53,947 bases of DNA from Pararhodobacter sp. (GTDB taxonomy: Bacteria; Pseudomonadota; Alphaproteobacteria; Rhodobacterales; Rhodobacteraceae), in the NCBI GenBank assembly GCA_020832665.1, contig JAFIEG010000025.1, positions 1 through 53,947 on the forward strand, read 5' to 3'. Below are positions 24,920 through 41,841 of the stretch, one piece after another. Both the position numbers and the translations under genes were made by a program. Numbering within the stretch: position 1 is the stretch's first letter; every line of letters starts with the position of its first letter. Under the pieces are notes generated by a model. That model searched no databases. It had not been told where the DNA came from and saw nothing but the letters and a program-made list of their open reading frames with translations.

Positions 24920-27081
24920 TCCGCTGCCTCCAGCTGTGTCTGCTCGGCAAAGCTCAGCCGCCGTGCCTCGCGCCGGCGTTGCAGCCAGCCGATAAGCCGC
25001 GCCGAAACGCCTTTGCGCCAGCGTTCGAACCCGCCGGGATTGTGCACCACCCGCGCCTCGTAGAAGGATGGGCACAGCACCGCCGCATCGGCCACCTCGC
25101 CGCAATTGCCGCAGCCCACGCAGGTCTGGTCGATATGGGCGATGGGGTCGTCGCGCAGCGGGTCGTCAAGTTTTTTCAGCCCCAGCGATGGGCAGCCCGA
25201 CAGCCTTATGCAGGCGTGATCGCCGGTGCAGATATCCTCGTCCACGCCAAAGCGCGGCGCCTCCACCCGGCGGCCTTCCTTTACCGCCTTCACCTTTTGC
25301 GGCTTTTCGCGCCGCTGCCGGTTGAGCATGCATTCCGACGAGGCGATGATCACCTTGGGGCCCTTGTAATCGGTGGTCAGTGCCTCGTGGAAAACAGCGC
25401 GCATCTTCGGCACGTCATATGTGCGATCGATCTCGCGCACCCATTCCACACCGATGCCGCGCACAGCCTTGGCGATGGGGTTGTTGGTGGCCTTGGTGGG
25501 GTTCGAGGCGCGGCTTGAAAGGACATCCTGCCCGCCGGTGGCTGCCGAGTAGAAGTTATCGACGATCACGGCGACCGAATCGGAGCGGTTGAACACCATG
25601 TTGCCGATCGAGGATGAAAGCCCGTTATGCCAGAAGCCGCCATCGCCGAGGATGGAAATGGCGCGTTTCTCGCCGCCGCCGTCGAAGGCCGCGTTCGAGG
25701 CCGGCCCGAGCCCATAGCCCATCGTCTGCCCGCCGATCTCGAAAGGCGGCAGCGCGGCAAACAAGTGGCAGCCGATATCGCCCGAAATCTGGTGTTGGCC
25801 CAGATCCTGCTGCACCAGCTTCAGCGCGGCGAAGATGGGCCGCTCGGGGCAGCCGGTGCAGAAACCCGGAGGGCGGATGGGCACGGTTTTCGACAGGTCG
25901 GGCACATCCGGCGCGGGCTCGTTGGGTGCGAGCACCTGCCCGGGCAGCAATTCGGGCGCGGCTTGGCGAAGGAAGCTTTCGATCGAATCGAGCATCACCT
26001 GGCCGGTATATTCGCCGGCCATGGGAAAGACGTCCTTGCCATGCAGCGCCACCGGCGCCTTGGCGCGGTAAAGATAGGTGGAAAGCTGTTGTTCGATGAA
26101 TTCGGGCTGGCCTTCCTCGACCACCAGCACCGCCTGCTTGCCCTCGCAGAATTCAAGGAACTCGGATGACACCAGCGGATAGGTGACATTGAGCACATAG
26201 AGCGGCACCTCGGTCTGGCCGTGGATATCGGCCAGCCCCAACCGCTGCAGCGCGCGGATGACGCCGTTATACATGCCGCCCTGCACGACGATGCCGACCT
26301 TGCCTTGCCCGGGTCCGAAACGCTCGTTCAGCCCCTTTTCGCGGATGAATTTCTCGGCCGCCGGCCAGCGATTCTTCACCTTGTCCTGTTCGTGCTGATA
26401 CGACATCGGCGGCAGCACCACGCGGCTGAAATCCTTGCGCGGCTCCGACAGCGCCTTGCGCACGCTTAACGGCGGGCGCTGGTTGTCGCGTGTCTCGAAC
26501 TGGCCGGTGACATGGCAGCAGCGGATGCGCACCATCATCATCACCGGCGTGTTCGAGGCTTCCGACAACTCGAATCCGTCGCCCACCGCCTTGACGATCG
26601 AGGGCAGGTTGGGGCGCGGATCGAGAAGCCAGAACTGCGATTTCATGGCGAATGCGTGGCTGCGCTCCTGCATGATCGAAGAGCCCTCGCCGTAATCCTC
26701 GCCGACGATGATCAGCGCGCCGCCGGTCACGCCCGACGAGGCCAGGTTCGCAAGCGCATCCGAGGCGACATTCACCCCCACCGAGCCCTTGAAGGTGACC
26801 GCGCCGCGAATCGGGTAATGCACCGAGGCCGCCAGCATGGCCGCCGCCGCCGCCTCTGATGCGTTGGCCTCGAAGCGCACGTCAAGCTCGCCCAGCAGTT
26901 CCTCGGCATCGGCCAGCACATCCATCAGATGGCTGATCGGCGCGCCCTGATAGCCGCCGACATAGCCCACGCCGTTTTCCAGCAGCGCCTTGGTCAGCGC
27001 CAGGATGCCCTCGCCGGTAAAGACATCGCCATCGCCCTTGCGCAGATGCTCGACCTCGGCCTTGAAGGATCGTTCGGCCAT
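24916..27081 (-). CDS. iorA: Indolepyruvate:ferredoxin oxidoreductase, alpha-type subunit (IorA)
   Basis: The 721-residue protein carries a pyrimidine-binding domain (ENGVGYVGGYQGAPISHLMD, RFEANASEAAAAAM), a TPP-binding domain (CTGCPERPIF, GDIGCHLFAALPP, ILGDGGFWHNG, VIVDNFYSAATGG) and two C-terminal 4Fe-4S motifs (CTGDHACIRLSGCP and CVGCGNC...CPSF). It catalyses the TPP-dependent decarboxylation of indolepyruvate or phenylpyruvate. It is translationally coupled to iorB. A MarR-type gene lies 153 bases upstream on the same strand, with an operator-like palindrome between them. Its position beside an aromatic oxygenase locus suggests a role in tryptophan or arylpyruvate catabolism. Confidence 0.92.
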   Translation of the reverse strand: MAERSFKAEVEHLRKGDGDVFTGEGILALTKALLENGVGYVGGYQGAPISHLMDVLADAEELLGELDVRFEANASEAAAAAMLAASVHYPIRGAVTFKGSVGVNVASDALANLASSGVTGGALIIVGEDYGEGSSIMQERSHAFAMKSQFWLLDPRPNLPSIVKAVGDGFELSEASNTPVMMMVRIRCCHVTGQFETRDNQRPPLSVRKALSEPRKDFSRVVLPPMSYQHEQDKVKNRWPAAEKFIREKGLNERFGPGQGKVGIVVQGGMYNGVIRALQRLGLADIHGQTEVPLYVLNVTYPLVSSEFLEFCEGKQAVLVVEEGQPEFIEQQLSTYLYRAKAPVALHGKDVFPMAGEYTGQVMLDSIESFLRQAAPELLPGQVLAPNEPAPDVPDLSKTVPIRPPGFCTGCPERPIFAALKLVQQDLGQHQISGDIGCHLFAALPPFEIGGQTMGYGLGPASNAAFDGGGEKRAISILGDGGFWHNGLSSSIGNMVFNRSDSVAVIVDNFYSAATGGQDVLSSRASNPTKATNNPIAKAVRGIGVEWVREIDRTYDVPKMRAVFHEALTTDYKGPKVIIASSECMLNRQRREKPQKVKAVKEGRRVEAPRFGVDEDICTGDHACIRLSGCPSLGLKKLDDPLRDDPIAHIDQTCVGCGNCGEVADAAVLCPSFYEARVVHNPGGFERWRKGVSARLIGWLQRRREARRLSFAEQTQLEAAE

Positions 27082-27234: not shown

Positions 27235-27765
27235 TCAATGGCCGTCTTCGTCATGGCGGGAAAGCGGGTTGCCGGGCAGCGCCGCAAGCAGGCTGGCCAG
27301 CATCGGCTTGAGCGCGCGGCGCTGTTCGGGGGGCAGGCAGGCCAGCACCTGCGCCTCCTGATCGCGCGCCAGATTCAGCAACGCTTCCAGCAGGGCGCGG
27401 CCGTCGGGCGCCAGAAAGACGCGCACGCGGCGGCGGTCGCGCGGGTCGCTGCGTCGGGTGACGAGGCTGCGCTCTTCCATGCGCTCGATGACGCGGGTCA
27501 TGGCGCTTTGTTCCATCAGCGCCAGTGCCGCCAGTCGCGTCACCATCTGCCCGTCGCGGTCATGCAGGCAGGCCAGCACCCGCCATTCGGGCACGCGCAA
27601 CCCGTTCTGGCGCACGATGGCGTGAAACCCGGCGCTGGCCGAGGCGCTGGCGGCGGCGAGCAGAAACAGCAGGTAATCGCCAAGAAAGGGCGCGCCCTCG
27701 GTAATGCTGTCGGCGGGCGCAGCGGCGGGGCCGGTTGTGGTGGCGGTGTCGATCGGTCCGGTCAT
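27235..27765 (-). CDS. MarR-family transcriptional regulator
   Basis: The 176-residue protein starts at the ATG at 27765, with GGGGGA five bases upstream. Its winged helix-turn-helix reads LRVPEWRVLACLHDRDGQMVTRLAALALMEQSAMTRVIERMEERSLVTRR, with the wing DPRDRRRVRVFLAPDG. MarR proteins are dimeric repressors released by small aromatic ligands. The gene lies between iorAB and the Rieske oxygenase operon, divergent from the latter, with palindromes on both sides. MarR regulators of auxin (iad) loci are known in Variovorax and Bradyrhizobium; that this one responds to an indolic or aryl acid is inference. Confidence 0.9.
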   Translation of the reverse strand: MTGPIDTATTTGPAAAPADSITEGAPFLGDYLLFLLAAASASASAGFHAIVRQNGLRVPEWRVLACLHDRDGQMVTRLAALALMEQSAMTRVIERMEERSLVTRRSDPRDRRRVRVFLAPDGRALLEALLNLARDQEAQVLACLPPEQRRALKPMLASLLAALPGNPLSRHDEDGH

Positions 27766-27813
27766 GATGATCCCCCAGGCGCGCCGGGCAGGCGTGTAAA
27801 TTCGATCATAAAT

Positions 27814-27847
27814 CGTGCAACCGCAGGGCGAAAGATGTGTTTGCACG
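27814..27847. promoter_or_regulatory. Inverted repeat CGTGCAA-N20-TTGCACG in the divergent regulatory region
   Basis: Perfect 7-bp arms lie at 27814-27820 and 27841-27847, 21 bases between arm centres' inner ends plus or minus one, about two helical turns. It is upstream of the oxygenase promoter candidate and of the marR start, so it could serve as a second regulator site. Confidence 0.35.
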
Positions 27848-27866
27848 CATGGCAAAGAAGAAAAGC

Positions 27867-27895
27867 TTGACGCATATTATATGATATTTCATATT
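27867..27895 (+). promoter_or_regulatory. Candidate oxygenase-operon promoter with embedded palindrome
   Basis: TTGACG (27867-27872) and CATATT (27890-27895) are spaced by 17 bases. Between and over them lies the perfect palindrome ATATGATATTTCATAT (27879-27894; 6-bp arms, 4-nt centre). A repressor bound there would block polymerase, the classic MarR arrangement. The first gene begins at TTG 27925, about 25 bases after the expected transcript start. Confidence 0.5.
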
Positions 27896-27924
27896 TGCGA
27901 CCTAATCCACGGGAGAATCGCCTC

Positions 27925-28902
27925 TTGAACCAGCTTTCCAGCCCAGTTTCCGGCCTTCTGGAACTGCGCGTCAGCGCCGCCGCGCCCGCCGCCGAACGGG
28001 TGCGCGAACTGGTACTCGAGCCGGTGGCGGGCAGCCTGCCGTCCTATGCGCCCGGCGCGCATGTCGAGATCACCCTGCCCGATGGCGATACGCGCCCCTA
28101 TTCGCTGATCGATCTTGAGGGCCGCACCAGCGCGCCGGCGCATTACCGCCTTGGCGTGCTGCTCGAGGCCGAAAGCAAGGGCGGCTCTCGCTACATGCAT
28201 GCGCTTTCGGTGGGTGACCGGGTCACCGCCAGCGCGCCGAAGAACGACTTCGCGCTGGCCGACAGCGAGGCGCCCGCGCTGTTGATTGCCGGCGGCATCG
28301 GGGTGACGCCGATCATCTCGATGGCCGGGGCGCTGAAGGCGGTGGGCCGGCCTTATCGGTTGGTCTATGCCGCGCAGGATGCGGGGCGCATGGCCTTTCG
28401 CGAGGCTCTCGAGGCCGAGCATGGTGAGGCGCTGGCGCTTCATTTCGACGACCGGGCTGGCGGCCCACTGCCGCTGAAGCCGCTGATTGAAAGCGCAGCG
28501 CCGGGTGCGCATCTCTATGTCTGCGGCCCGCGAGCGATGATCGAGGCCGCGCGCGCGGCGGCCGAGGCGGCGGGATTTGCGCCCGAGCGCATCCATTTCG
28601 AGCTGTTCGAGAAGGCCGCGCCGCAGGCGGATGACCAGCCCTTCGAGGTGGAACTCGCCTCGAGCGGGCAAGTTTTCACCATACCGCCGGGGCGCAGCAT
28701 AATCGAGGTGCTGGAAGAATCCGGCATCGATCTGATGTATGATTGCCAGCGCGGCGATTGCGGCATCTGCCAGACCGATGTGCTGGAAGGCGAGCCCGAT
28801 CACCGCGATGTGGTGCTCAGCCAGGCCGAGCGCGATTCCGGCAAGGTGATGCAGATATGCGTAAGCCGCGCGAAATCGGCCCGGCTGAAGCTTGATCTCT
28901 GA
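27925..28902 (+). CDS. Phthalate-dioxygenase-reductase-type ferredoxin reductase (electron donor of the Rieske oxygenase)
   Basis: The 325-residue FMN/NAD(P)H reductase has a C-terminal plant-type [2Fe-2S] domain. The flavin motif RPYSL is at 57-61, nucleotide-binding GGIGVTP at 123-129, CGP at 200-202, and cluster cysteines are at 274, 279, 282 and 312. TTG at 27925 was chosen because GGGAG lies nine bases upstream; a TTG at 27895 would fall inside the promoter. It passes electrons from NAD(P)H to the Rieske oxygenase encoded next. There is no separate ferredoxin gene, as expected for this reductase type. Confidence 0.9.
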   Translation: MNQLSSPVSGLLELRVSAAAPAAERVRELVLEPVAGSLPSYAPGAHVEITLPDGDTRPYSLIDLEGRTSAPAHYRLGVLLEAESKGGSRYMHALSVGDRVTASAPKNDFALADSEAPALLIAGGIGVTPIISMAGALKAVGRPYRLVYAAQDAGRMAFREALEAEHGEALALHFDDRAGGPLPLKPLIESAAPGAHLYVCGPRAMIEAARAAAEAAGFAPERIHFELFEKAAPQADDQPFEVELASSGQVFTIPPGRSIIEVLEESGIDLMYDCQRGDCGICQTDVLEGEPDHRDVVLSQAERDSGKVMQICVSRAKSARLKLDL

Positions 28903-28918
28903 CAGGGAGGGGAAGACC

Positions 28919-30283
28919 ATGCACTATCCCGAAACCCGCGAGGCGATGGCAGCGCTGGTGCAGCCGCAGCAGGTGCACCGCGATCTCTACATCTCGCCCG
29001 AGATCTACCGCCTGGAATGCCGGCATCTGTTCTCGAATTGCTGGCTTTATGTCGGCCATGACAGCCAGGTGCCGAAGAAGGGCGATTATTACACCACGCA
29101 GCTGGCCGATCAGCCGGTGATCATGGTGCGCCATACCGACGATCAGGTGCATGTTCTCTATAACCGCTGCCCGCACAAGGGCACCAAGATCGCCATTGAT
29201 CGCACCGGCAATACCGGCAAGTTCTTTCGCTGCCCCTATCACGCCTGGAGCTTCAAGACCGATGGCTGCCTGCTCGCGATTCCGCTGAAGAAGGGCTACG
29301 AGGGCACCGGGCTTGACCAGGCCGAGGCCGGGCGCGGCATGACCCCGGTGGGCGCGGTGCACAATTACCGCGGCTTCGTCTTTGCGCGCATGGCGCCCGA
29401 GGGAATTCCCTTCGACGAGTTCTTCGGTGACTCGCTTTCCTCGCTCGACAACATGCTCGATCGTTCGCCCGCCGGCCGGCTGGAGGTGGTGGGTGCGCCG
29501 CTGCGTTACATGCACAAGTGCAACTGGAAGATGCTGGTCGAGAACCAGACCGACACCTGCCACCCGATGGTGGCGCATGAATCGAGCGCCGGCACGGCGG
29601 TGAAAATATGGGAGAGCATGGATAAGCCCGAGGGCACGCCCACACCGCCGGCGATGGAGATCATCGCCCCCTTCATGAGCCCCTACGAGTTCTTCGAGAA
29701 GATGGGCATTCGCACCTGGCCAAACGGCCACGGCCATACCGGCGTGCACCATTCGATCCATTCGAAATATTCCGAAATCCCGGGCTACATGGACAGTCTG
29801 ATCGCCGCCTATGGCGAGGAAAAGGCCAAGGCTATTCTGGGCGAGAACCGGCACAACACCGTCTATTTCCCCAACATCATGATCAAGGGGCCCATCCAGC
29901 AACTGCGCAATTTCATCCCGCTGGGCGCTGACAAGACACTGGTGGAAAGCTGGATCTTCCGCCTGGTCGATGCGCCCGACGAGTTGCTGGCGCGCACGGC
30001 GATGTATAACCGGATGATCAACGCGCCCACCTCGATGGTCGGCCATGACGATCTGGAAATGTATGAGCGCGCGCAGGAGGGGTTGCACTCGCAGGGCTCT
30101 GAGTGGGTGAATGTGCAGCGCCTCTATGAAGAGGGCGAGGATTTCGATGAAGAAGCAGTGCTCAACGGCACCACCGAGCGGCAGATGCGCAACCAGTTCC
30201 ACGCCTGGCTGAAATTCATGACCGCCGGCATGCCCCCAAGCACGCCCCGGGGCAAGGGCGCCACGAAGGAGGCCGCCGAATGA
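28919..30283 (+). CDS. Rieske aromatic-ring-hydroxylating oxygenase, alpha subunit
   Basis: The 454-residue catalytic subunit carries the Rieske centre C84-x-H86 (CPHKG) and C105-x2-H108 (CPYHAW). The mononuclear iron site is seen in D212-T-C-H215 and H220 (QTDTCHPMVAHE). A GGGAGGGGAAG site precedes the ATG. It overlaps the beta subunit gene by four bases. Enzymes of this group dihydroxylate or monohydroxylate aromatic rings, including indolic and aryl-carboxylic substrates. Genes for CoA activation and side-chain cleavage directly downstream suggest an aryl-acetic-type acid; the exact substrate is inferred, not seen. Confidence 0.92.
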   Translation: MHYPETREAMAALVQPQQVHRDLYISPEIYRLECRHLFSNCWLYVGHDSQVPKKGDYYTTQLADQPVIMVRHTDDQVHVLYNRCPHKGTKIAIDRTGNTGKFFRCPYHAWSFKTDGCLLAIPLKKGYEGTGLDQAEAGRGMTPVGAVHNYRGFVFARMAPEGIPFDEFFGDSLSSLDNMLDRSPAGRLEVVGAPLRYMHKCNWKMLVENQTDTCHPMVAHESSAGTAVKIWESMDKPEGTPTPPAMEIIAPFMSPYEFFEKMGIRTWPNGHGHTGVHHSIHSKYSEIPGYMDSLIAAYGEEKAKAILGENRHNTVYFPNIMIKGPIQQLRNFIPLGADKTLVESWIFRLVDAPDELLARTAMYNRMINAPTSMVGHDDLEMYERAQEGLHSQGSEWVNVQRLYEEGEDFDEEAVLNGTTERQMRNQFHAWLKFMTAGMPPSTPRGKGATKEAAE

Positions 30284-30783
30284 CCGAGACATTGACCGCC
30301 ACCAAGGTAGCCGTCACCCGCGACGACCTGATCGATTTCGTCTATGCCGAGGCGCGCATGCTCGATGAGGGCCGCTTCGATGAATGGCTCACCCTGTGGG
30401 CCACTGACGGCATGTACTGGATGCCGCTTGAATGGAACCAGCAAGACCCGATCCTTGAAACTTCGCTGCTATACGAGGATCAGTTCATGCTGCGCCTGCG
30501 CGTCGAGCGGCTCAACGGCGCGCGCACCTTCAGCCAGAAGCCGAAAAGCCGCTGCCTGCATGTGCTCAACCGCCCCGATGTTGATCTGATCGACAACGAG
30601 GCCGGGCGCTACAAGGTGGTCACGCGCATGATCTATGTTGAAACCCGGCTGGACGAGCAGTTCGAGCTGGCGATCACCGCCACGCATGATCTGGCCTGGC
30701 AGGACGGCTTGAAGATCACGCAAAAGCGCGTCGATATCCTCAATTGCGACGCCGCCTTCGGCAACATCCAGCTACTGCCTTGA
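30280..30783 (+). CDS. Rieske aromatic-ring-hydroxylating oxygenase, beta subunit
   Basis: The 167-residue small subunit has the NTF2-like cone fold. Family landmarks are DFVYAEARMLDEGRFDEWLTLWATDGMYWMP and the later RLERLNGARTF-like segment LRVERLNGARTFSQ, and SRCLHVLNR. It is structural in the alpha3beta3 hexamer. The start codon overlaps the alpha stop (ATGA), and the stop lies two bases before the CoA ligase start, so the genes are tightly coupled. Confidence 0.92.
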   Translation: MTETLTATKVAVTRDDLIDFVYAEARMLDEGRFDEWLTLWATDGMYWMPLEWNQQDPILETSLLYEDQFMLRLRVERLNGARTFSQKPKSRCLHVLNRPDVDLIDNEAGRYKVVTRMIYVETRLDEQFELAITATHDLAWQDGLKITQKRVDILNCDAAFGNIQLLP

Positions 30784-30785
30784 GC

Positions 30786-32387
30786 ATGCCCGCCATCACC
30801 GCCACCAGTGTTCACGCCGCCTTTGCCGCCACCGCCGCGCGCTGCCCCGGTCGGCCGTTCCTGAACGTGCTGCCGGAAACGGCGGCCGTCTATGGCATCG
30901 AGGCGGGCGAAATCAGCTATGCGCAGGCGGCGGCCGAGGTGGAGCGCTTGCGCGCGGCGTTGGAAGGTGCCGGGCTGGGCGCGGGTCATCGGCTGATGCT
31001 GCTGATGGAAAACCGCCCCTCATTTTTCCTGTGGTGGCTGGCGGCGAACGGCCTTGGTGCTTCGGTGGTGCCGGTCAACCCCGATCTGCGCGCGGCCGAG
31101 CTTGAATACATGATCGGCCATGTCACCCCGGCGCTGGCGGTGGCGATCCCGGCGCGTGTGCCCGATCTGCAGGCTGCCGCCCGCGCCGCCGGCATCGCCA
31201 TGCCGGTGGCCGCGCCCGATGCGCCGCTACCGCGCGTGAGCGCCGCGCCGGTTTTCAAGGGCGACGAGGCGGCGGTGCTCTATACCTCGGGCAGCACCGG
31301 CCGGCCCAAGGGCTGTGTGCTGGGCAATGATTACTTCATCATCGCCGGCAACTGGTATTCGGGCGTGGGCGGGCTGTGCGAATTGCGCGATGGCGACCGA
31401 ATGATCACGCCGCTGCCCATTTTTCACATGAACGCCATGGCCTGTTCCTTCATGGCCATGATCGCCATCGGCGGCTGTCTGACGGCGCTTGACCGCTTCC
31501 ACCCGCGCACATGGTGGCAATCGGTGCGCGCTTCCCGCGCCGATTGCCTGCATTATCTGGGCGTCATGCCCTCGATGCTGATGGGCCTGCCGGAAAGCCC
31601 CGAAGACCGCGCGCATGGTGTTCGCTTCGGTTTCGGCGCCGGGATCGATCCCAAGCTGCACGCGGCGTTCGAGGCGCGTTTCGGCTTTCCGCTGGTCGAG
31701 GCCTGGGCGATGACCGAAACCGGCAATGGCGCGGTCATCGCCGCCAGCCATCCGCCGCGCAGGGTGGGCGAAAGCTGCCTGGGGCGGCCGGGGTCGGGGA
31801 TGGAGATGCGCATCATCGGCGATGACGGGCAGGAAGTGGCGCCGGGCGAACCGGGTGAATTGCTGGTGCGCGCCGCCGGGCCCGACCCGCGAGCAGGCTT
31901 CTTTCGCGAATATTACAAGGATCCCGCCGCCACCGCCGAGGCCTGGGAGGGCGGCTGGTTTCATACCGGTGACATCGTGCGCCAGGAACAATCGGGCGAG
32001 GTGTTCTTCGTCGATCGCAAGAAGAACGTGATCCGGCGCTCGGGCGAGAATATCGCCGCGGTCGAGGTGGAATCGGTGCTCATGCGCCACCCCGCCGTCA
32101 AGGCCGCCGCCGTTGCCGCCGTGCCCGATGACATTCGCGGCGATGAGGTGTTCGCCTGTCTGATCGTTGACAACTCCGCGCCCGATCTGGCTGAGGAGAT
32201 CGCGCGCTGGGCGCTGGGGCAGATGGCCTATTACAAGGTGCCCGGCTACATCGCCTTTGTCGCGGAACTGCCGCTGACCGCCACCAACAAGCTGCAGCGC
32301 GCCGAACTAAAGGCGCTGGCCGCGCGGCTTGTGAATGACCCGGCCACGGTGAACACCACGCATCTCAAACGCCGGCAGGTGGCCTGA
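30786..32387 (+). CDS. AMP-forming acyl/aryl-CoA ligase (class I adenylate-forming)
   Basis: The 533-residue protein shows the P-loop LYTSGSTGRPKGCVL, motif WAMTETGNG for YGxTE, GWFHTGDIVRQ, the hinge FVDRKKNVIRRSGENIAAVEVES and the catalytic Lys region LPLTATNKLQRAEL. It makes a CoA thioester of the oxygenase substrate or product. ATG 30786 follows the beta-subunit stop by two bases, and its stop overlaps the next start (TGATG). In an ipf-like scheme it would play the part of IpfF; in an indoleacetate scheme it would activate the oxidised oxindole-acetate. Confidence 0.9.
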   Translation: MPAITATSVHAAFAATAARCPGRPFLNVLPETAAVYGIEAGEISYAQAAAEVERLRAALEGAGLGAGHRLMLLMENRPSFFLWWLAANGLGASVVPVNPDLRAAELEYMIGHVTPALAVAIPARVPDLQAAARAAGIAMPVAAPDAPLPRVSAAPVFKGDEAAVLYTSGSTGRPKGCVLGNDYFIIAGNWYSGVGGLCELRDGDRMITPLPIFHMNAMACSFMAMIAIGGCLTALDRFHPRTWWQSVRASRADCLHYLGVMPSMLMGLPESPEDRAHGVRFGFGAGIDPKLHAAFEARFGFPLVEAWAMTETGNGAVIAASHPPRRVGESCLGRPGSGMEMRIIGDDGQEVAPGEPGELLVRAAGPDPRAGFFREYYKDPAATAEAWEGGWFHTGDIVRQEQSGEVFFVDRKKNVIRRSGENIAAVEVESVLMRHPAVKAAAVAAVPDDIRGDEVFACLIVDNSAPDLAEEIARWALGQMAYYKVPGYIAFVAELPLTATNKLQRAELKALAARLVNDPATVNTTHLKRRQVA

Positions 32388-33553
32388 TGGCGCGCGCAGG
32401 TTATGACGGCGCGGTTCTGGTGGCGCCCTTCACCGAGCCCTACAGCCGCTTTTCCAATGAAAGCGCGCATTGGTGGATCGCCCGCGCCCTGCGCGGCTCA
32501 TTGCGCGCCGCCGGGCTGGGCCCGCGCGAAATCGACGGCTTCTCGGTGGCCAGCTTCACCCTGTTCCCCGATACCCCGGTGGCGCTGACCCAGCATCTGG
32601 GCCTCAGCCCGCGCTGGCTGGACAGCGTGCCGATGGGCGGCGCCTCGGGTGTGGTGGCGCTGCGCCGGGCCGCGCGCGCGGTGCAGGCGGGAGATGCCGA
32701 TATTGTCGCCTGCGTGGCCGGCGATACCAACCCCATCGACGGCTTTCGCAAGCTCCTGTCGGCCTTTTCGCGCTTTGCTCTCGATGCAAGCTACCCCTAT
32801 GGCTATGGCGGCCCCAATGCCAGCTTCGCCCTCCTGATGGACCGCTACATGCAGGAATACGGCGCCAGCCGCGCCGATTTCGGCCATGTCGCCGTGGCAC
32901 AGCGCGCCAATGCGCTGAAGAATCCCCATGCGCTGATGAAAAAGCCGCTGACGCTCGATGATTACCTCAACGCCCGCCCCATCGCCGAGCCCATCGCGCT
33001 GTTCGATTGCGTCATGCCCTGCGCCGGGGGCGAGGCATTTCTGGTCATGCGCGAGGATCGCGCCCGCGCGCTGGGCCTGCCCTTTGCGCGCATCCGAGCC
33101 ACCATCGAGCGCCACAATGCCTTTGCCGATGACCCCATCCAGCTACGTGGCGGTTGGGTGGTCGATGTCGATGAGCTTTGGCAGATGGCCGGCATGGGCC
33201 CGCAAGACATGGACCTTGTGCAGACCTATGATGATTACCCGGTGATCTCGGTCATGCAGTTCGAGGATCTGGGCTTTTGCGCGAAGGGCGAAGGCGCGGA
33301 TTTCCTGCGCGCGCGCGATCTGACCATTGCCGGCGATCTGCCGCACAACACCTCGGGCGGGCAGCTTTCCTCCGGGCAGGCGGGTGCGGCGGGCGGCTTC
33401 ATCGGGCTGGTCGAGGCCATCCGACAGGTCACGCAGACCGCCGGGCCTACGCAGGTAGCGGATGCCGCGCGCGCGCTGGTTTCGGGTTTCGGCATGATCA
33501 ATTTCGACCGCGGTGTGTGTTCTGCCGCCTGCGTGCTGGAGGGTGGCGCATGA
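32387..33553 (+). CDS. Thiolase-fold protein of the SCP-X/Ltp2 type lacking thiolase Cys and His; candidate C-C lyase
   Basis: The 388-residue thiolase superfamily member resembles lipid-transfer-protein thiolases (VQTYDDYPVISVMQFEDLGFCAKGEG). The nucleophilic Cys position reads GGASG with Ala at 86, and the GHP histidine motif reads SSGQAGAAGG, so ordinary thiolysis is unlikely. Ltp2 and IpfD proteins of this kind act with a DUF35 partner as retro-aldol or deacylating lyases that release an acyl-CoA from a side chain. The next gene supplies a DUF35 domain, and the two overlap (ATGA). I infer cleavage of the CoA-activated, hydroxylated intermediate into acetyl- or propionyl-CoA plus a ring product. 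Confidence 0.85.
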   Translation: MARAGYDGAVLVAPFTEPYSRFSNESAHWWIARALRGSLRAAGLGPREIDGFSVASFTLFPDTPVALTQHLGLSPRWLDSVPMGGASGVVALRRAARAVQAGDADIVACVAGDTNPIDGFRKLLSAFSRFALDASYPYGYGGPNASFALLMDRYMQEYGASRADFGHVAVAQRANALKNPHALMKKPLTLDDYLNARPIAEPIALFDCVMPCAGGEAFLVMREDRARALGLPFARIRATIERHNAFADDPIQLRGGWVVDVDELWQMAGMGPQDMDLVQTYDDYPVISVMQFEDLGFCAKGEGADFLRARDLTIAGDLPHNTSGGQLSSGQAGAAGGFIGLVEAIRQVTQTAGPTQVADAARALVSGFGMINFDRGVCSAACVLEGGA

Positions 33554-34794
33554 CCGAGCCCCTCGCACCGCCGCCCAAGAAGAACCCGCAGCGCCGCACC
33601 CGCCTGCCCACGCTGCCGCCGGCGATGCGCTCGCGCGCCGGGCTGGGGCTGGCGCTGGCGGCGGGGCAGGGGCGGTTTGCGCTTCAATGCTGTGCTGAGT
33701 GCGGCGCGGTGCAATACCCGCCCCGCGATGCCTGCCACCAATGCCTTGCCACCGACCTGCAATGGCGCGACCAGCCCACCGGCGGTCAGCTTCTGGCCGA
33801 AACCCGCATCCATGCCAGCCCCGACCCCTATTTCCGCGAGCGTCTGCCCTGGCGCGCCGGCACCGTGCAGCTCGATGCCGGGCCGGTGGTGCTGGCGCAT
33901 GTCCATGGCGATGTGGCGCGCGAGGCACGGGTGCGCATGGCGCTCAGGCTGGACCGGGCAGGGCAGGGGGTGCTGATGGCGCTGCCGGAACGCGAGACCC
34001 CGCATATGGAGGATGACCCGATGCTGCGCGAGATGGGCACCCACCCGCGCCACCGGCGCGTGCTGATCACCGATGCCCGAGCCCCCGAGGCCGAGCCGCT
34101 TGCGCGCGCGCTTCTCGATGCCGGCGCCGCGCATGTCTTTCTGGGCCTGGCCGAGGGCTGGCGGCCCTTCCCGGCGTGCGAACGGATCGAGGCGATCGAG
34201 GGTGTCACCTTGCACCCGCTCGATGTCACCGATGCCGAATCGCTGGCTGATCTGGCCGGCTCCATCGGCGGCAAGGTCGATATCCTGATCAACAATGCCC
34301 GCCATATCCGCCCCGGCGGGGTGATCGGTGCGGCCTTGCATGACACCCGCGATGCACTGGAAGTGGGCGCGCTGGGGCTGATGCGGCTGGCGCATGCCTT
34401 CGGCCCGGCAATGCGCGCGCGCGGCGCCGACGGGGTGAACAGCGCGTGCGCCTGGGTGAATGTGCTGCCCGCGCAGGCGCTTGCGCATGATCCGGGCTTT
34501 GCCGGCGCAGTGGCGGCGGGCGCGGCAATGCGGGCGCTGTCGCTTTCGCTACGCGCCGAGCTGCGCGCCGGCGGCATAAGGGTTCTGCATGCCCATGCCG
34601 GCCCTATCGATGACGAATGGCACCAGCCCCTGCCGCCGCCAAAGCTGGCCCCGGCGGCGCTGGCGCGCGCCATCGTGCAGGGGCTCGAACAGGGGCTCGA
34701 GGAAATCCACGCCGGCGATGTGGCGCGCGACCTGGCGCAGCGTTTTGCCGAAAACCCCGCCCTGCTGGCGCGCGAGATGGAAGGGGGCGCATGA
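33550..34794 (+). CDS. DUF35 (Zn-ribbon/OB-fold) domain fused to a degenerate SDR domain
   Basis: The protein has 414 residues. Residues about 25-150 form a DUF35 unit with a rubredoxin-like Zn ribbon (C48-x2-C51 ... C62-x2-C65) and an OB-fold. From about 168 an SDR-like Rossmann domain follows (VDILINNARH at 243-252), but the cofactor loop TGxxxGxG is replaced by TDARAPEAEP (174-183), and the YxxxK region reads FAGAVAAG (317-324). It should therefore neither bind NAD(P) normally nor reduce. The DUF35 part is the expected partner of the preceding thiolase-fold lyase. The SDR-like part may be a structural or substrate-channelling module. The ATG overlaps the upstream stop. Confidence 0.82.
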   Translation: MTEPLAPPPKKNPQRRTRLPTLPPAMRSRAGLGLALAAGQGRFALQCCAECGAVQYPPRDACHQCLATDLQWRDQPTGGQLLAETRIHASPDPYFRERLPWRAGTVQLDAGPVVLAHVHGDVAREARVRMALRLDRAGQGVLMALPERETPHMEDDPMLREMGTHPRHRRVLITDARAPEAEPLARALLDAGAAHVFLGLAEGWRPFPACERIEAIEGVTLHPLDVTDAESLADLAGSIGGKVDILINNARHIRPGGVIGAALHDTRDALEVGALGLMRLAHAFGPAMRARGADGVNSACAWVNVLPAQALAHDPGFAGAVAAGAAMRALSLSLRAELRAGGIRVLHAHAGPIDDEWHQPLPPPKLAPAALARAIVQGLEQGLEEIHAGDVARDLAQRFAENPALLAREMEGGA

Positions 34795-35567
34795 TGGTGC
34801 TCGATACCCTGACAAAGGCGCTGGCTTCGGGCAGCGTGCGCGTGGTCGATCTGACTCACACGCTGGATCCGGATTTCCCGGTCATCGTGCTGCCCGCCGA
34901 ATTCGGCCAATGCGCGCGCTTTCGCATGGACGAGGTCTCGGCCTATGACCATCGCGGCCCGGCCTGGAAATGGCACAACATCTCGATGTCCGAACATACC
35001 GGCACGCATTTTGACGCCCCCATCCACTGGGTCACCGGCCGCGATGTGCCCAATGGCGCCACCGATGCCATCGATCCTGTCGCATTTGTGGGCCCGGTCT
35101 GCGTGATCGACTGCTCGGCAGGTGCGGCGGCAGATGAGGATTTCACGCTCGAGCCCACCCATATCGAGGAATGGGAAGCCCGCCACGGCCCCATCCCCGC
35201 CGGCGCCTGGGTGCTCATGCGCACCGACTGGTCGCACCGGCAGGGGGCGGAGTATCTGAACCTGCGCAAGGATGGCGCGCATTCGCCCGGCCCCTCGCCG
35301 GCGGCGGTGCGCGCGCTGCTTGATCGCGGCATCATCGGCTTCGGCAGTGAATGCGTGGGCACCGATGCCGGCCAGGCCGCGCATTTCGATCCGCCCTATC
35401 CGGCCCATGCCATGCTGCACGGGGCGGGAAAATACGGGCTGCAATGCCTGCGCAACCTCGATGCGCTGCCCCCCACCGGCGCGGTGCTGATCTGCCCGCC
35501 GCTCAAGATCAGGGGCGGCACCGGCTCGCCGCTTCGGGTGCTGGCGCTGGTGGAGGCAAGCGCATGA
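34791..35567 (+). CDS. Cyclase-family metal-dependent hydrolase, isatin-hydrolase-like
   Basis: The 258-residue protein carries the Mn-binding motif H69-x-G-T-H73-x-D75-x-P-x-H79 (HTGTHFDAPIH), shared by isatin hydrolases, bacterial kynurenine formamidase and other cyclases. The length fits isatin hydrolase. In an indole-acetate scheme it would open isatin to isatinate after the lyase step, en route to anthranilate. In other schemes it could open a lactam or lactone. The start overlaps the previous stop (ATGA) and the stop overlaps the next start, so it is a core member of the operon. The substrate is inferred. Confidence 0.85.
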   Translation: MMVLDTLTKALASGSVRVVDLTHTLDPDFPVIVLPAEFGQCARFRMDEVSAYDHRGPAWKWHNISMSEHTGTHFDAPIHWVTGRDVPNGATDAIDPVAFVGPVCVIDCSAGAAADEDFTLEPTHIEEWEARHGPIPAGAWVLMRTDWSHRQGAEYLNLRKDGAHSPGPSPAAVRALLDRGIIGFGSECVGTDAGQAAHFDPPYPAHAMLHGAGKYGLQCLRNLDALPPTGAVLICPPLKIRGGTGSPLRVLALVEASA

Positions 35568-36289
35568 CCGATTACACCGCCGTCATCACCGGGGGCAACA
35601 AGGGCATCGGCGCCGATCTGGGGCAGGCGATGCTGGGCAAGGGCTGGCGCGTCGTGTCCATCGCCCGTCACGCTGGCAAGGCGCGCCATGAGCGGCTCGA
35701 ACACATTCAGGCCGACCTGATGGACCCGGCCGCCACTGCACAGGCCGCCGCCGATATCGCCGCGCGCCACCGCGTCACGCATTTCATCCATAATGCCGGC
35801 ATCATCCTGCCCAACCTGATCGAGGATGCCAAACCGGACGATCTGCAGGCGCTTACGCAACTGCATCTCGGCGCCGCGCTGACCCTCACCCAGGCCTTTC
35901 TGCCGGCGATGAAGGAGGCGCGCTTCGGGCGCATCCTCTTCAACGCCTCGCGCGCCTCGCTGGGGGCAAAGACCCGCACCGCCTATTCGGCCTCGAAGGC
36001 CGGCATGATCGGCATGGCGCGGACATGGGCGCTGGAACTGGCCGAGCACGGCATCACCGTCAATGTCGTCGCCCCGGGCCCGGTGCTGACCGACAATTTC
36101 TGGGGCATCATCCCCAAGGGCAGCGCGCAAGAGGCCGACCTCGCCGCGCGCCTGCCGGTGGGCCGGCTCGGCACAACTGAAGACATCACTCACGCCTTCA
36201 TGTTCTTCGCCGATTCGAAAGCCGGCTTCGTCACCGGCCAGACGCTCTATGTCTGTGGCGGTGCCAGCATCGGCGGAGTACCGATATGA
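35564..36289 (+). CDS. Short-chain dehydrogenase/reductase
   Basis: The 241-residue classical SDR has an intact cofactor loop TGGNKGIG (9-16), HNAG, and the catalytic YSASK (Tyr141, Lys145) after NASRASLGAKTRTA. The C-terminus is NVVAPGPVLTDNF...GQTLYVCGG. Unlike the SDR-like domain two genes upstream, it should be active. Possible roles are oxidation of a cis-diol from the Rieske enzyme or of a hydroxy intermediate. The start overlaps the cyclase stop. The stop codon adjoins a dispersed repeat copy, which probably marks the end of the catabolic transcript or a junction before the transporter genes. Confidence 0.9.
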   Translation: MTDYTAVITGGNKGIGADLGQAMLGKGWRVVSIARHAGKARHERLEHIQADLMDPAATAQAAADIAARHRVTHFIHNAGIILPNLIEDAKPDDLQALTQLHLGAALTLTQAFLPAMKEARFGRILFNASRASLGAKTRTAYSASKAGMIGMARTWALELAEHGITVNVVAPGPVLTDNFWGIIPKGSAQEADLAARLPVGRLGTTEDITHAFMFFADSKAGFVTGQTLYVCGGASIGGVPI

Positions 36290-36357
36290 CCCTTTCATCT
36301 TGCCAGGAAATACGCCGGGGGGAGTCCGCCGCCAGGCGGGCGGGGGGCAGCGCCCCC
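36290..36357 (-). repeat. Dispersed GC-rich hairpin repeat, copy 3
   Basis: In reverse orientation: CCCTTTCATCTTGCC, then AAATACGCCGGGGGGAGTCC, an inner hairpin GCCGCCAGGCGGGC and the terminal GGGGGGCAGCGCCCCC. It starts directly after the SDR stop and lies between the catabolic genes and the TRAP transporter. The remainder of the gap up to 36456 contains the AGGGAGAAG ribosome site of the next gene. Confidence 0.8.
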
Positions 36358-36456
36358 TCACCCGAAAAGCATTTTGCAAGTCAATCTTTCAAGTTTAACC
36401 TTCCGCCCGAGGGCGGAGCCAGAACCACCCAGCAAAACCACAGGGAGAAGAAGACC

Positions 36457-37491
36457 ATGACCTACCAGACACCCTTGCGCAGCCTCACCGCGGGCGCGGC
36501 GCTCCTGGCCTTTTCGGCCGGTGCGCAAGCCGAGACGGTGCTCACCTTCAACTGGTGGATTCCTGCCACCCATCTGATGCGCACCGAGATCATGAACCCC
36601 TGGGCCGACGCCGTGGCCGAGGCCACGAATGGCGAGGTGCGCATCGAGTTCACCACCACCTCGCTGGCGCCGCCGCCGCGCCAGCCCGAGCTGGTCGCCG
36701 ATGGCGCTGTCGATCTGGTGCTCGGCGTGCATGGCTACACGCCTGATCGCTTCGTCAATGCCGGGGTGATGGAGCTGCCCTTCATGACCACCACCGGCGA
36801 GCATGCCTCGATCGCCTATTGGCGCGCCTTTGAGCGTTTCTTCGCCGATACCGGCGAGCATGAGGGCGTGCGCGTGCTGGCGCATTACGTGCACAGTGCC
36901 GGCACGGTAATGGCGCGCGAGCGCGTGCTCGACAGTATCGATGCCTTCAACGGGCTTCTGATCCGCGCCGGTGGCGGCACACAGGACCGCGTCGCTGATG
37001 CGCTGGGCGGCTCGGTCGTCTCTTCGCCGGCGCCCACCACCTACGAGCTTCTGGCCAATGGCGTTGTCGATGCCACGCTGATGACGCCCGATGGCTACAC
37101 CTCGTTCAACCTGGCCGATCACATTCACACCCAGCTGCTGGTGCCGGGCGGGCTGTTCAACTCGTCCTTCTTCGTGCTGATGAACGAAGACAGCTATGCC
37201 CGCATCCCCGAAGAGCACCGCGAAGCCTTCGACGCGCTCACCGGCGAATATTTCTCGGCGCTGGGCGGGCGCGGCTTCGATACGGTGTCGGAAGCCGGGC
37301 TGGCGCAGATGATCGAGGATGGCCGCACCGTGATCACCGCAGATGACGACATGGTCGCCGAGATGCAGGCGCGCACCGCCTTTCTGGAAGAGGAATGGAT
37401 CGAGCGCGTGGGCGAGCGCCACGGCATCGACGGGCGCGAGGTGATCGACTTCCTGCGCGCGACGATGGCTGAACTCGCCGAAGAAGAGTAA
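36457..37491 (+). CDS. dctP: TRAP transporter substrate-binding protein (DctP family)
   Basis: The 344-residue protein has a signal peptide (MTYQTPLRSLTAGAALLAFSAGAQAE). The mature part begins TVLTFNWWIPATHLMRTEIM, typical of DctP-like binding proteins, and includes GLLIRAGGGTQDRVADALGGSVV, corresponding to the conserved Arg-containing ligand-clamping segment that binds carboxylates. ATG 36457 follows AGGGAGAAG; the longer upstream reading crosses the repeat. Position after the oxygenase operon suggests uptake of the same carboxylated aromatic substrate. Confidence 0.88.
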   Translation: MTYQTPLRSLTAGAALLAFSAGAQAETVLTFNWWIPATHLMRTEIMNPWADAVAEATNGEVRIEFTTTSLAPPPRQPELVADGAVDLVLGVHGYTPDRFVNAGVMELPFMTTTGEHASIAYWRAFERFFADTGEHEGVRVLAHYVHSAGTVMARERVLDSIDAFNGLLIRAGGGTQDRVADALGGSVVSSPAPTTYELLANGVVDATLMTPDGYTSFNLADHIHTQLLVPGGLFNSSFFVLMNEDSYARIPEEHREAFDALTGEYFSALGGRGFDTVSEAGLAQMIEDGRTVITADDDMVAEMQARTAFLEEEWIERVGERHGIDGREVIDFLRATMAELAEEE

Positions 37492-37533
37492 GGGCTCAGG
37501 CCATGACCAGGCCCCCCGAGGCCCGCAACAATC

Positions 37534-37566
37534 CAGAGGCCCCCGGCAACAGGCCGGGGGCCTCTG
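37534..37566 (+). other. 14-bp perfect stem-loop between dctP and dctQ
   Basis: CAGAGGCCCCCGGC (37534-37547) pairs perfectly with 37553-37566 around the loop AACAG. There is no T run after it, so it is likely an mRNA-stabilising or partial-attenuation structure that keeps the binding protein more abundant than the permease. It also argues that the dctQ start is downstream of it. Confidence 0.7.
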
Positions 37567-37574
37567 CCGCCGAC

Positions 37575-38129
37575 ATGCTGGTGCGCAACGACCCCGAATC
37601 GGAAGATTTCGGCGGCCCCTCGGGGCTGATCGGCGAGGCGCGCTGGATGACCTGGCTCGAGCGCCTGCTGGGGCTGGCGCCGGCGGTGATCCTGTTCGCG
37701 ATGATGGTGCTGACATTCGTAAATGTCTTCATGCGCTATCTCTTTCGTCAGCCGATCTCGGGTGCCTTCGAGATCATGTCCTACATGATGGGGCTGATGG
37801 TGTTCCTGTCGCTGGTCCTCGTCGCGGCGCGTTCGGATCATGTGCGCATCTCGGTGCTTGACGGTTTCCTGCCCTTCTGGCTTCGCCGGGCGCGGGCGGT
37901 GCTGTTCAACCTGATCATGGCGGCCATCTGCGCCGGGCTGGGCTGGCGGCTTTGGCTTTACGGCGAGCGGCTGACAAGCTGGGGCGACAAGACACAGATG
38001 TACGGGCTGCCCAACGGGCTTCTGGCCAAGATCATGGCCGGTTCGACGCTGATCTGCGCGGTGCTGTTCGTGGCATTGGCGGTCATGTTGATCTGGCGCC
38101 GCGACGCGCTGCATCGGGTGGAAGGCTGA
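37575..38129 (+). CDS. dctQ: TRAP transporter small permease (DctQ family)
   Basis: The protein has 184 residues from the ATG at 37575. An in-frame ATG at 37503 would add 24 Pro/Ala-rich residues encoded by the strong stem-loop, so the downstream start is preferred, though no good ribosome site settles it. Four hydrophobic segments are visible (VILFAMMVLTFVNVFMRYLF, IMSYMMGLMVFLSLVLVAA, AVLFNLIMAAICAGLGWRL, LICAVLFVALAVMLIW). DctQ helps assemble the sodium-driven importer with DctM. Its stop lies one base before dctM. Confidence 0.85.
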   Translation: MLVRNDPESEDFGGPSGLIGEARWMTWLERLLGLAPAVILFAMMVLTFVNVFMRYLFRQPISGAFEIMSYMMGLMVFLSLVLVAARSDHVRISVLDGFLPFWLRRARAVLFNLIMAAICAGLGWRLWLYGERLTSWGDKTQMYGLPNGLLAKIMAGSTLICAVLFVALAVMLIWRRDALHRVEG

Positions 38130-38130
38130 C

Positions 38131-39420
38131 ATGATCGACGGGGTGCTGGTTCTTCTGGGCCTGATGGTGCTTTTGCTGGCCGGCATGCCCATCGCCTTTG
38201 CGCTGGGGGCGGTGGCCTGGCTGGGCATTGCCGCCATGCGCAATGTCAATGTCGCCAACACCATCGCGGTCAACCAGATCTTCGATCTGGCGCAGACCCA
38301 CACCTTCACCGTGCTGCCGCTGTTCATCCTGATGGGCAATCTGATCGCACGGGCGCGCATCAGTCATGACCTTTACGCCGCCTCGAACGCCTTCATGGGC
38401 CATTACCGGGGCGGGCTGGCGATGGCCACCATCGCCGCCTGCGGCGGGTTCTCGGCTGTGTCGGGCTCGTCGATGGCCACAGCCTCGACCATGTCGCGCG
38501 TGGCGATGCCGCCAATGCGCAAGCTGGGCTATGCCGATTCGCTCGCCGCCGGCTCGATCACGGCGGGCGGCACGCTGGGCATTCTCATCCCGCCCTCGGT
38601 GATCCTGCTGATCTACGGCATCCTGACCTCCACCAATATCGGAAAGCTGTTCATAGCCGGCATTGTGCCAGGGCTGATCGCGGTGATCGGCTACATCATC
38701 GCCATCATCGTGGTCACGCGGCTGAACCCGGCTGCCGGCCCGGCCGGGCCGCGCACCGCCTGGCCCGAGCGGCTGCGGCTTCTGCGCGGGGTCTGGCCGG
38801 TGGTGGCGCTTTTCGTGCTGGTGCTGGGCGGGATCTATATGGGGGTCTTCACCCCCACCGAGGCGGCGGGCATCGGCGCGGCCGGGGCGTTCTTGTTCGT
38901 GCTGGCGCGCCGGCGGTTGAGCCTGACCGGGCTGTGGGACATCCTGTCGGAATCGGCGCGCACCTCGGCGATGATGATCGCGCTTCTGTTCGGGGCGACG
39001 CTGTTCAACAACTATCTAGACATGCTGGGCTTTGCCCGCGCGCTGGCCGACTGGCTGAACGCGATGGATGTCTCGCCCTTCACCGTGCTGTTGGCGATGA
39101 TGGCGGTGTATCTGGTGCTGGGGCTGTTCCTGGAAAGCCTGTCGATGATGCTGCTGACCATCCCCATCTTCTTTCCCATCACCCAGGCGGTGGGGATCGA
39201 CCCGATATGGTTCGGGATTCTGGTGGTGGTGGCGATCGAGATCAGCCTGATCACGCCGCCGGTGGGGCTGAACGTGTTCATCCTCAAGATCATGGTGCGC
39301 AACATCTCGCTGGCGACGATCTTTCGCGGCATCCTGCCCTTCTTCATCGCCGATCTGGTGCGGCTGGCGATCCTGCTGGCCTTTCCGGCGCTGGTGCTGT
39401 TCCTGCCGCGGATGATGTAG
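38131..39420 (+). CDS. dctM: TRAP transporter large permease (DctM family)
   Basis: The 429-residue membrane protein has about twelve hydrophobic segments. DctM landmarks are LPLFILMGNLIARARIS, AACGGFSAVSGSSMATASTMSRVAMP, GSITAGGTLGILIPPSVILLIYGI and MLLTIPIFFPITQAVGIDPIWFGIL. It forms the sodium-dependent translocation pathway. The stop codon merges with a dispersed repeat copy, marking the end of the transport operon. Confidence 0.93.
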   Translation: MIDGVLVLLGLMVLLLAGMPIAFALGAVAWLGIAAMRNVNVANTIAVNQIFDLAQTHTFTVLPLFILMGNLIARARISHDLYAASNAFMGHYRGGLAMATIAACGGFSAVSGSSMATASTMSRVAMPPMRKLGYADSLAAGSITAGGTLGILIPPSVILLIYGILTSTNIGKLFIAGIVPGLIAVIGYIIAIIVVTRLNPAAGPAGPRTAWPERLRLLRGVWPVVALFVLVLGGIYMGVFTPTEAAGIGAAGAFLFVLARRRLSLTGLWDILSESARTSAMMIALLFGATLFNNYLDMLGFARALADWLNAMDVSPFTVLLAMMAVYLVLGLFLESLSMMLLTIPIFFPITQAVGIDPIWFGILVVVAIEISLITPPVGLNVFILKIMVRNISLATIFRGILPFFIADLVRLAILLAFPALVLFLPRMM

Positions 39421-39487
39421 GGGGGCGCTGCCCCCCGTCCGCCTGGCGGCGGACTCCCCCCGGCGTATTTCAGGCAAGATGAAGGGG
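39420..39487 (+). repeat. Dispersed GC-rich hairpin repeat, copy 4
   Basis: The hairpin GGGGGGCGCTGCCCCCC is followed by a second stem (GTCCGCC-TGGC-GGCGGAC), then CCCCCCGGCGTATTT and GGCAAGATGAAGGGG. It starts on the last base of the dctM stop codon and sits between convergent genes, where it could act as a terminator. Confidence 0.85.
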
Positions 39488-40086: not shown

Positions 40087-41685
<1,599 letters not shown>

Positions 41686-41841
41686 CCGATCGCTCCTTCC
41701 GCTTCCGCCCTGCCCGCGATGGGCCCTGATACGCGAACGCCCCGCTCCCCTGCCTCGGAACGGGGCGGCGACAGCCAAGCCGGGGCTGTAACGCCGCCTA
41801 TATCATGGCCTTCGCATGAAGGAACAGCACACAAGCCGGCA

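Follow-up and report, generated by a model that had tools for sequence, protein, structure and literature searches.

The closest described systems to the one reported here are the indole-3-acetate (IAA) degradation (iad) gene clusters of Variovorax paradoxus CL014, Bradyrhizobium and Achromobacter, which share IadR, iadA, iadB and the gene order C-D-E-F-G-H-I-J. In the Variovorax core, iadC is given as a reductase gene, iadD and iadE as Rieske oxygenase genes, iadF as a ligase gene and iadJ as a dehydrogenase gene, together with iadK2; the products of iadG, iadH and iadI are labelled ketothiolase, alcohol dehydrogenase and kynurenine formamidase, respectively, and the F-G-H-I steps were assigned from annotation with their intermediates undetected (PMC12633357). 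A route from isatin to anthranilate has been reported for Variovorax, and iadA (COG4231) and iadB (COG1014) are described as exclusive iad markers (PMC9613470). The iad cluster itself is known, and a marine locus is in print for Ruegeria pomeroyi, which degraded IAA like all other tested strains with such loci (PMC9613470). Here, a stretch of 53,947 nucleotides from Pararhodobacter sp. (assembly GCA_020832665.1, contig JAFIEG010000025.1, positions 1 to 53,947; hereafter the window) was analysed, and homology identifies in it a complete auxin-degrading iad cluster.

This cluster very probably degrades IAA by the full route proposed here. Binding of IAA by IadR would lead to derepression, and IadCDE followed by IadJ would convert IAA to dioxindole-3-acetate, as demonstrated for their orthologs. 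IadF may then form the CoA thioester, which IadG, with the DUF35 domain of IadH as its docking partner, would cleave by a retro-aldol reaction to isatin and acetyl-CoA, involving neither a thiolase cysteine nor a reduction. Isatin would be hydrolysed to isatinate by IadI, whose ortholog LaIHA has demonstrated activity, and IadAB, an enzyme of the indolepyruvate:ferredoxin oxidoreductase (IOR) type with thiamine pyrophosphate (TPP) and Fe-S centres, may carry out the oxidative decarboxylation of isatinate (2-aminophenylglyoxylate) to 2-aminobenzoyl-CoA. The latter could give anthranilate by hydrolysis or enter the aerobic 2-aminobenzoyl-CoA pathway, with the genes likely elsewhere in the genome. 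A preliminary description of this DNA, made without database searches, had proposed an auxin-type pathway. This is borne out by the gene order, which matches the iad cluster in print, and by the best sequence matches of the Rieske and cyclase proteins, which are not unrelated characterised pathways but the Variovorax IadD, the best solved match of IadD, and an assayed isatin hydrolase.

The iadR, iadA and iadB genes lie on the minus strand, divergent from iadCDEFGHIJ and the genes of a TRAP transporter on the plus strand. All genes named in the preliminary description are present as open reading frames, with the expected domains in Pfam. However, it had placed the start of the cluster at 27235 and overlooked the two exclusive markers iadA and iadB, both present by homology at 23345-27081 on the minus strand, where they immediately follow the MarR gene. 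Its remark that the genes mostly show ATGA overlaps holds for four of the seven junctions from iadC to iadJ (4-base overlaps at D/E, G/H, H/I and I/J); F/G overlap by 1 base, and E/F and C/D are separated by 2 and 16 bases, respectively. Relatives were taken as the best 80 loci among the matches listed in an IadD alignment scan of named genomes, with 74-89% IadD identity to the window. They are nearly all from alphaproteobacteria, mostly Rhodobacterales and Rhizobiales-type genera, with three gammaproteobacterial records. Under the identity limits set for gene-order calls, the order C-D-E-F-G-H-I-J on one strand was found in 57 of these 80 loci, indicating a gene grouping far beyond chance, and C-D-E-J-G-H-I was found in 2 and other partial orders in 12, some at contig ends. 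The occurrence of C-D-E-J without F-G-H-I in some loci shows that the cluster is modular (C-D-E-J versus F-G-H-I). Loci without F-G-H-I in between include L045, L046, L050, L056-L062 and L070, Paracoccus among them, and in L046 and L050 the G-H-I genes adjoin iadA/iadB instead. On the R. pomeroyi DSS-3 megaplasmid (L225), ~21 kb separates a C-D-E-F-G-H-I-J set from one of iadA-iadB-thioesterase.

The oxygenase module is headed by iadC (27895-28902, plus strand as for all genes to iadJ; start uncertain), which encodes a PDR/VanB-type reductase with Pfam Fer2 and NAD_binding_1 domains and is 47% identical to the Variovorax-like iadC. The Rieske oxygenase alpha subunit encoded by iadD (28919-30283) has the Variovorax IadD (9O71) as its best solved relative (E 3.6e-175; 57-58% identity), and the next family is 3-phenylpropionate dioxygenase (E 3.4e-43). 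The beta-subunit gene iadE (30280-30783; PF00866) is present in all 80 loci, and its product is 49% identical to the Variovorax-like copy. As judged by the match for IadD and by synteny for IadE, the pair is orthologous to the characterised iad pair. The short-chain dehydrogenase/reductase (SDR) encoded by iadJ (35564-36289) has an intact YxxxK and glycine motif, its Tyr, Lys and three motif glycines being kept in 77/77 sequences by alignment column. According to published isotope work, IadCDE acts as a monooxygenase and IadJ performs the second oxidation (PMC12633357); the earlier suggestion that IAA is oxidised to dioxindole-3-acetate therefore stands for the product, whereas a single dioxygenation does not. 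The following iadF (30786-32387; PF00501/PF13193), within the C-to-J order of the 57 loci, encodes a predicted AMP-forming acyl-CoA ligase.

Evidence from the regulator also points to IAA. The iadR gene (27235-27765, minus strand; the ATG at 27765 is the predicted start in a frame opening with TTG at 27855) encodes a MarR-family protein whose best solved match is 3CDH (E 1.3e-40), followed by MarR_73 (7KFO; E 9.5e-20). In an alignment read by hand, the MarR_73 contacts Tyr15, Ser28, His32, Trp45 and Arg46 are kept in IadR, so that all of the IAA-carboxylate contacts (Ser28, His32 and Arg46; numbering of PMC9613470) are present. MarR_3CDH of R. pomeroyi is reported to bind IAA with a dissociation constant (KD) of 0.237 uM (PMC9613470). 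Over 140 residues, the 3CDH sequence shares 99.3% identity with the MarR protein opposite C-D-E-F-G-H-I-J in L104, from another R. pomeroyi strain, and only weak matches to it were found in the DSS-3 megaplasmid stretch. A divergent IadR-like gene lies within 4.5 kb in 64 of the 67 loci, among the best 80, that have enough upstream sequence. A weak candidate operator in the divergent promoter region, the unstranded palindrome ATATGA-N4-TCATAT at 27879-27894 with 6-base arms, was rejected as a conserved element; the pattern recurs in merely 3 of 73 relatives tested, and no claim is therefore built on it.

The cyclase encoded by iadI (34791-35567; PF04199) is assigned by sequence as an isatin hydrolase. 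Its best solved match is the assayed isatin hydrolase A (LaIHA; 5NNB) of Labrenzia (now Roseibium) aggregata, with E 5e-131 and 73% identity, and kynurenine formamidases match at E 7.4e-5 or worse. LaIHA has a Km of 16 uM for isatin (PMC6117287). The HxGTHxDxPxH motif reported in the preliminary description is present as HTGTHFDAPIH, together with GLQC, corresponding to the isatin hydrolase motifs HxG[T/A]HxDxPxH and GLQC/GLAS (PMC6117287), and the isatin-hydrolase-like character ascribed to this protein was thus confirmed. Moreover, LaIHA, over 253 residues compared, is exact in Roseibium aggregatum IAM 12614 (L096), where it takes the iadI place in an R | C-D-E-F-G-H-I-J cluster, which makes the assayed isatin hydrolase a true IadI. 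In Labrenzia sp. DG1229 (L086:15789-16582), the iadI frame is split into two pieces.

The side-chain-removing step is assigned to iadG and iadH. The iadG gene (32387-33553) encodes a thiolase-fold protein with a Pfam thiolase C-terminal domain, described earlier as lacking the thiolase Cys and His; it does contain six Cys elsewhere, but the catalytic positions are lost. In an alignment of 15 sequences, ranging from the window's protein as far as the Variovorax-like one, with 7YVY and 6ESQ as thiolase references, the thiolase Cys is replaced by Gly85, the GHP His by Gln331 and the HDxF His by Tyr281, invariantly in 15/15. Profile search ranked 9MYR first among the solved relatives, the putative thiolase 4U4E second and 6OK1 third. 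Fold search with the predicted model placed the Sal-Shy(DUF35) aldolase (9MYR) first and the Ltp2-ChsH2(DUF35) aldolase (6OK1) next, at 29-32% identity, although the fold by itself cannot part aldolases from thiolases, 7YVY and others being close behind. The AlphaFold model has a mean pLDDT of 78.5 and a pTM of 0.86, with low confidence at residues 120-141, 199-210 and 326-332. The adjoining iadH (33550-34794) encodes a fusion of a DUF35 domain (zinc ribbon and OB, residues 37-132) with an SDR domain that has degenerated (about residues 167-411); Pfam finds zf-ChsH2 and OB_ChsH2_C, i.e. a ChsH2-type DUF35, and an SDR-like domain. Among 63 IadH sequences (the window and 62 of 84 loci passing coverage and identity limits), the zinc ribbon is kept in 63/63, whereas YxxxK, GxxxGxG and N[NH]AG each occur in 0/63. 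The Tyr column holds Phe in 50 and Tyr in 7 of these sequences, and the Lys column holds Lys in none. The Variovorax-like IadH has FSASK at the YxxxK site and a degenerate glycine motif, and in a more distant cluster (L026; IadD 46%, IadG 57%) IadH is a 156-residue DUF35 protein without an SDR domain. The label of alcohol dehydrogenase is thus doubtful for IadH, and DUF35 is the part retained. Dioxindole-3-acetyl-CoA is a tertiary beta-hydroxyacyl-CoA and cannot be oxidised to a beta-ketoacyl-CoA, which makes a retro-aldol cut to isatin and acetyl-CoA natural. The preliminary description had read the Cys-less thiolase and DUF35 pair in the same way, a reading that sequence and fold evidence and the missing SDR residues of IadH support. 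Taken together, the Cys/His loss in IadG, its matches to DUF35 aldolases and the motif pattern of IadH support retro-aldol cleavage to isatin and acetyl-CoA; IadG is probably a retro-aldolase acting with the DUF35 of IadH, and IadH would keep no SDR catalytic role.

The iadA gene (24916-27081, minus strand; PF02775) encodes a TPP subunit of the IOR-alpha type whose C-terminal cysteines are of the Fe-S type (CVGCGNC at residue 654), and iadB (23345-24919, minus strand, start at 24919 predicted; PF01558 and PF20169) a POR-type subunit with DUF6537 that is 44-86% identical to copies adjoining iadA orthologs in relatives. No solved relative of IadA was found at E<=1e-3, and IadA scores 277.8 bits against TIGR03336 (IOR_alpha), below the cut-off of 650.9 that defines IOR membership. 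The distribution of iadA was followed across 292 genomes from Rhodobacterales, the order of the window, with thresholds of at least 63% identity for iadA orthologs, E<=1e-50 for isatin hydrolase and E<=1e-140 for IadD. Matches to iadA were found in 50 genomes, orthologs in 46, isatin hydrolase in 43 and IadD in 23. Isatin hydrolase is present in 43 of the 46 genomes with an iadA ortholog and in 0 of the 246 without iadA (Fisher 2e-48, a value that ignores relatedness), and the four genomes with merely iadA paralogs (49-54%) have none. Each of the 23 iadD genomes also carries an iadA ortholog, and the other 23 iadA genomes lack iadD; the hydrolase gene lies within 10 kb of iadA in 20 of these 23 and in 36 of the 46 overall. 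The iadA orthologs thus track isatin hydrolase, not iadD. By eye, the hydrolase follows iadA in each of ten mixed genera (g3, g4, g226, g227, g228, g236, g413, g439, g454 and g469), so that relatedness is not the full explanation of the link; the mixed genera g229 and g231 contain an iadA genome without hydrolase. In the window's genus, iadA and isatin hydrolase are each present twice in both G726 and G815, and neither genome has a match to iadD.

Gene neighbourhoods show the same association. Of 54 iadA neighbourhoods retrieved, the 47 with orthologs had their proteins clustered, and a common single-strand order is isatin hydrolase, in some cases a flavin adenine dinucleotide (FAD) oxidoreductase, MarR, iadA and iadB. 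The annotation of Sulfitobacter mediterraneus plasmid P4 gives this order as cyclase, FAD oxidoreductase, MarR, IOR alpha and IOR beta, and its cyclase matches the isatin hydrolase LaIHB (4J0N) with E 7.5e-162; no iad catabolism in Sulfitobacter is described in the available part of PMC12114110. LaIHB, over 262 residues compared, is exact at L237:6117-6902 in Roseibium aggregatum IAM 12614, with matches to an FAD oxidoreductase, MarR, iadA and iadB following 3' on the same strand, and these genes probably form one operon. With LaIHA in iadC-J and LaIHB with iadAB, the two solved Labrenzia hydrolases are found in two halves of the system. The FAD oxidoreductase-like match between the LaIHB and MarR genes spans L237:6935-8413 (+); a further such match upstream, at L237:4440-6764 (-), overlaps the LaIHB gene, its true extent being shorter. 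These sequence patterns suggest that IadAB oxidises isatinate to anthraniloyl-CoA (2-aminobenzoyl-CoA). On balance, we favour IadAB as a new enzyme, isatinate:ferredoxin oxidoreductase, which with isatin hydrolase B and MarR would form a stand-alone isatin operon across Rhodobacterales, with iadCDEFGHIJ as an auxin module that would have joined it later. Strong accumulation of C8H7NO3 (the formula of isatinate) and of C7H7NO was confined to Variovorax strains with overexpressed iadC-K2 (PMC12633357), which were built in a deletion spanning iadA (PMC9613470); an isatinate oxidoreductase role of IadAB would explain this build-up in strains lacking iadAB. The 'iad' genes of Pseudomonas LY1 (PMC8383072) were rejected as a source on IadAB, these names being read as denoting other, iac-like genes, and the accessible parts of PMC11630574 and PMC10374108 contain nothing on IadAB function.

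Downstream genes fit an aryl-CoA product. A 764-residue protein scores 1298 bits (cut-off 1078) to NF006101, 'bifunctional salicylyl-CoA 5-hydroxylase/oxidoreductase', which we take to be the 2-aminobenzoyl-CoA monooxygenase/reductase family. It represents a protein cluster that occurs in 10 of the 47 iadA-ortholog neighbourhoods, often with thioesterase, RidA or SDR genes, and at E<=1e-250 NF006101 matches 45 of the 46 iadA genomes and 74 of the 246 others. The window's own genome has a match above the cut-off on another contig (C4), followed by frames named by eye as SDR, MarR, enoyl-CoA hydratase, acyl-CoA dehydrogenase, thioesterase, RidA and CoA ligase, of which the SDR, MarR, thioesterase and RidA names are also backed by comparison. 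In R. pomeroyi DSS-3, a thioesterase gene follows iadA-iadB. Beside the earlier remark that the window holds no ring-cleavage genes, downstream aromatic-CoA genes are therefore likely present elsewhere in the same genome.

Several observations weigh against the proposed route. Nine of the best 80 loci show C-D-E-J alone on that strand; in two of these nine, L045 and L057, H and I lie on the opposite one. Two indole-pocket residues of MarR_73 are changed in IadR (Ala18 to Phe and Val65 to Leu), the low-confidence stretch 326-332 of the IadG model includes Gln331, three iadA genomes (G717, G812 and G917) have no isatin hydrolase, and NF006101 is named for salicylyl-CoA. A Variovorax iad deletion given iadC-K2, with neither iadA nor iadB, regained anthranilate, IadAB not being needed there (PMC12633357). 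In the steroid system, neither aldolase nor hydratase activity seems to depend on the DUF35 domain (PMC11321319), against which stands the lowered anthranilate of an iadH deletion (PMC12633357). Finally, C8H7NO2 (the dioxindole formula), not isatin, accumulated without IadI, both in an iadI mutant and in an iadCDEFGH_JK2 strain, from which, together with annotation, the authors of the preprint infer a reductive removal of the acetyl side chain by IadG as ketothiolase and IadH as alcohol dehydrogenase, with dioxindole as the product (PMC12633357). This published reading is very unlikely for a pair in which the thiolase Cys and His are gone from IadG and no IadH of the 63 keeps YxxxK; the Variovorax-like copy has FSASK, and the more distant L026 protein has no SDR domain. 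Moreover, a tertiary alcohol cannot become a beta-keto thiolase substrate, and a side reduction of isatin could account for the dioxindole.

For IadAB, a role as true IOR feeding indoleacetyl-CoA or IAA into the pathway draws on TIGR03336 as the best named family for IadA and on its annotation as IOR in most of the plasmid records listed. It is nevertheless rather unlikely in view of the score far under the IOR_alpha cut-off (278 of 651 bits), of the half of the iadA genomes (23/46) that lack iadD and yet mostly (20/23) carry an isatin hydrolase gene nearby, and of the paralog-bearing genomes without that hydrolase. That the cluster degrades not IAA but another aryl-acetate or a 2-arylpropionate, like the ipf genes, is highly improbable. 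The preliminary description had named both iad and ipf as likenesses; the first holds, iad itself being the nearest of the systems compared by sequence, and the ipf genes use similar components (ligase, Cys-less thiolase, DUF35 and Rieske enzyme). An isatin hydrolase in the operon, however, fits an indole-derived intermediate, and IadR keeps the IAA-carboxylate contacts and IadD is closest to IadD. The preferred reading thus remains IAA degradation with retro-aldol cleavage by IadG-IadH and a proposed isatinate step by IadAB.

The cluster is followed on the plus strand by the TRAP genes for the solute-binding protein DctP (36457-37491; PF03480), the small membrane subunit DctQ (37503-38129; PF04290) and the large membrane subunit DctM (38131-39420; PF06808). 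As a guess, the substrate of this transporter is probably IAA or a related compound. A 21-base GC-rich element flanks them in opposite orientation, at 36310-36330 (+) and 39448-39468 (-), and its 18-base core has four exact copies genome-wide, two of them at the TRAP genes. Further 3', at 40087-42729, Pfam identifies an ATP-type phosphoenolpyruvate carboxykinase and a response regulator, which look unrelated.

The mechanistic readings of IadG and IadH look new, and the role proposed for IadAB is a new one that lends itself to testing; neither the retro-aldol/DUF35 nor the IadAB-isatinate assignment was found in a search of listings and passages of open-licence papers, and subscription papers may make them. 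If they are true, the auxin side chain would be removed by steroid-type aldolase chemistry, IadH would be a docking protein, not a dehydrogenase, and iadA and iadB, which have no assigned step in the literature examined, would gain a substrate. The two structurally solved isatin hydrolases are placed in their pathways, and the stand-alone isatin operon would give both Labrenzia enzymes theirs. Auxin and isatin chemistry is frequent in Rhodobacterales (iadA in 46/292 and iadD in 23/292 genomes), beyond plant-root bacteria.

Compared with the Variovorax-type iad clusters, the R-A-B genes of the window run opposite to C-J, whereas there A-J run in one direction, as in a Variovorax-like genome (G636; IadD 94% to 9O71) with R | A-B-C-D-E-F-G-H-I-J. 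TRAP genes for DctPQM follow iadJ in place of the ABC binding protein IadK2, which is published as not essential and was not searched for in the rest of the window. The marine Rhodobacterales loci of R. pomeroyi and Roseibium aggregatum, the cluster type from which 3CDH and LaIHA come, share the divergent MarR and the C-J order; those of Ruegeria and Roseibium (L096, L101, L104 and L108) have 77-79% IadD identity and TRAP genes less alike or elsewhere. With LaIHA and LaIHB, the window's IadI shares HxGTHxDxPxH and GLQC, a likeness by sequence. IadAB shares with IOR a TPP-enzyme alpha subunit and a POR-type partner, but IadA lies below the IOR cut-off and its genome context points to isatinate. 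Like the Sal-Shy(DUF35) and Ltp2-ChsH2(DUF35) steroid aldolases, the window combines a thiolase fold that has lost Cys and His with a DUF35 partner next door. In the steroid systems, however, DUF35 is fused to a MaoC hydratase in Shy and ChsH2 (PMC11321319), whereas in the window it is fused to a degenerate SDR domain, and the proposed product is a ketone, isatin.

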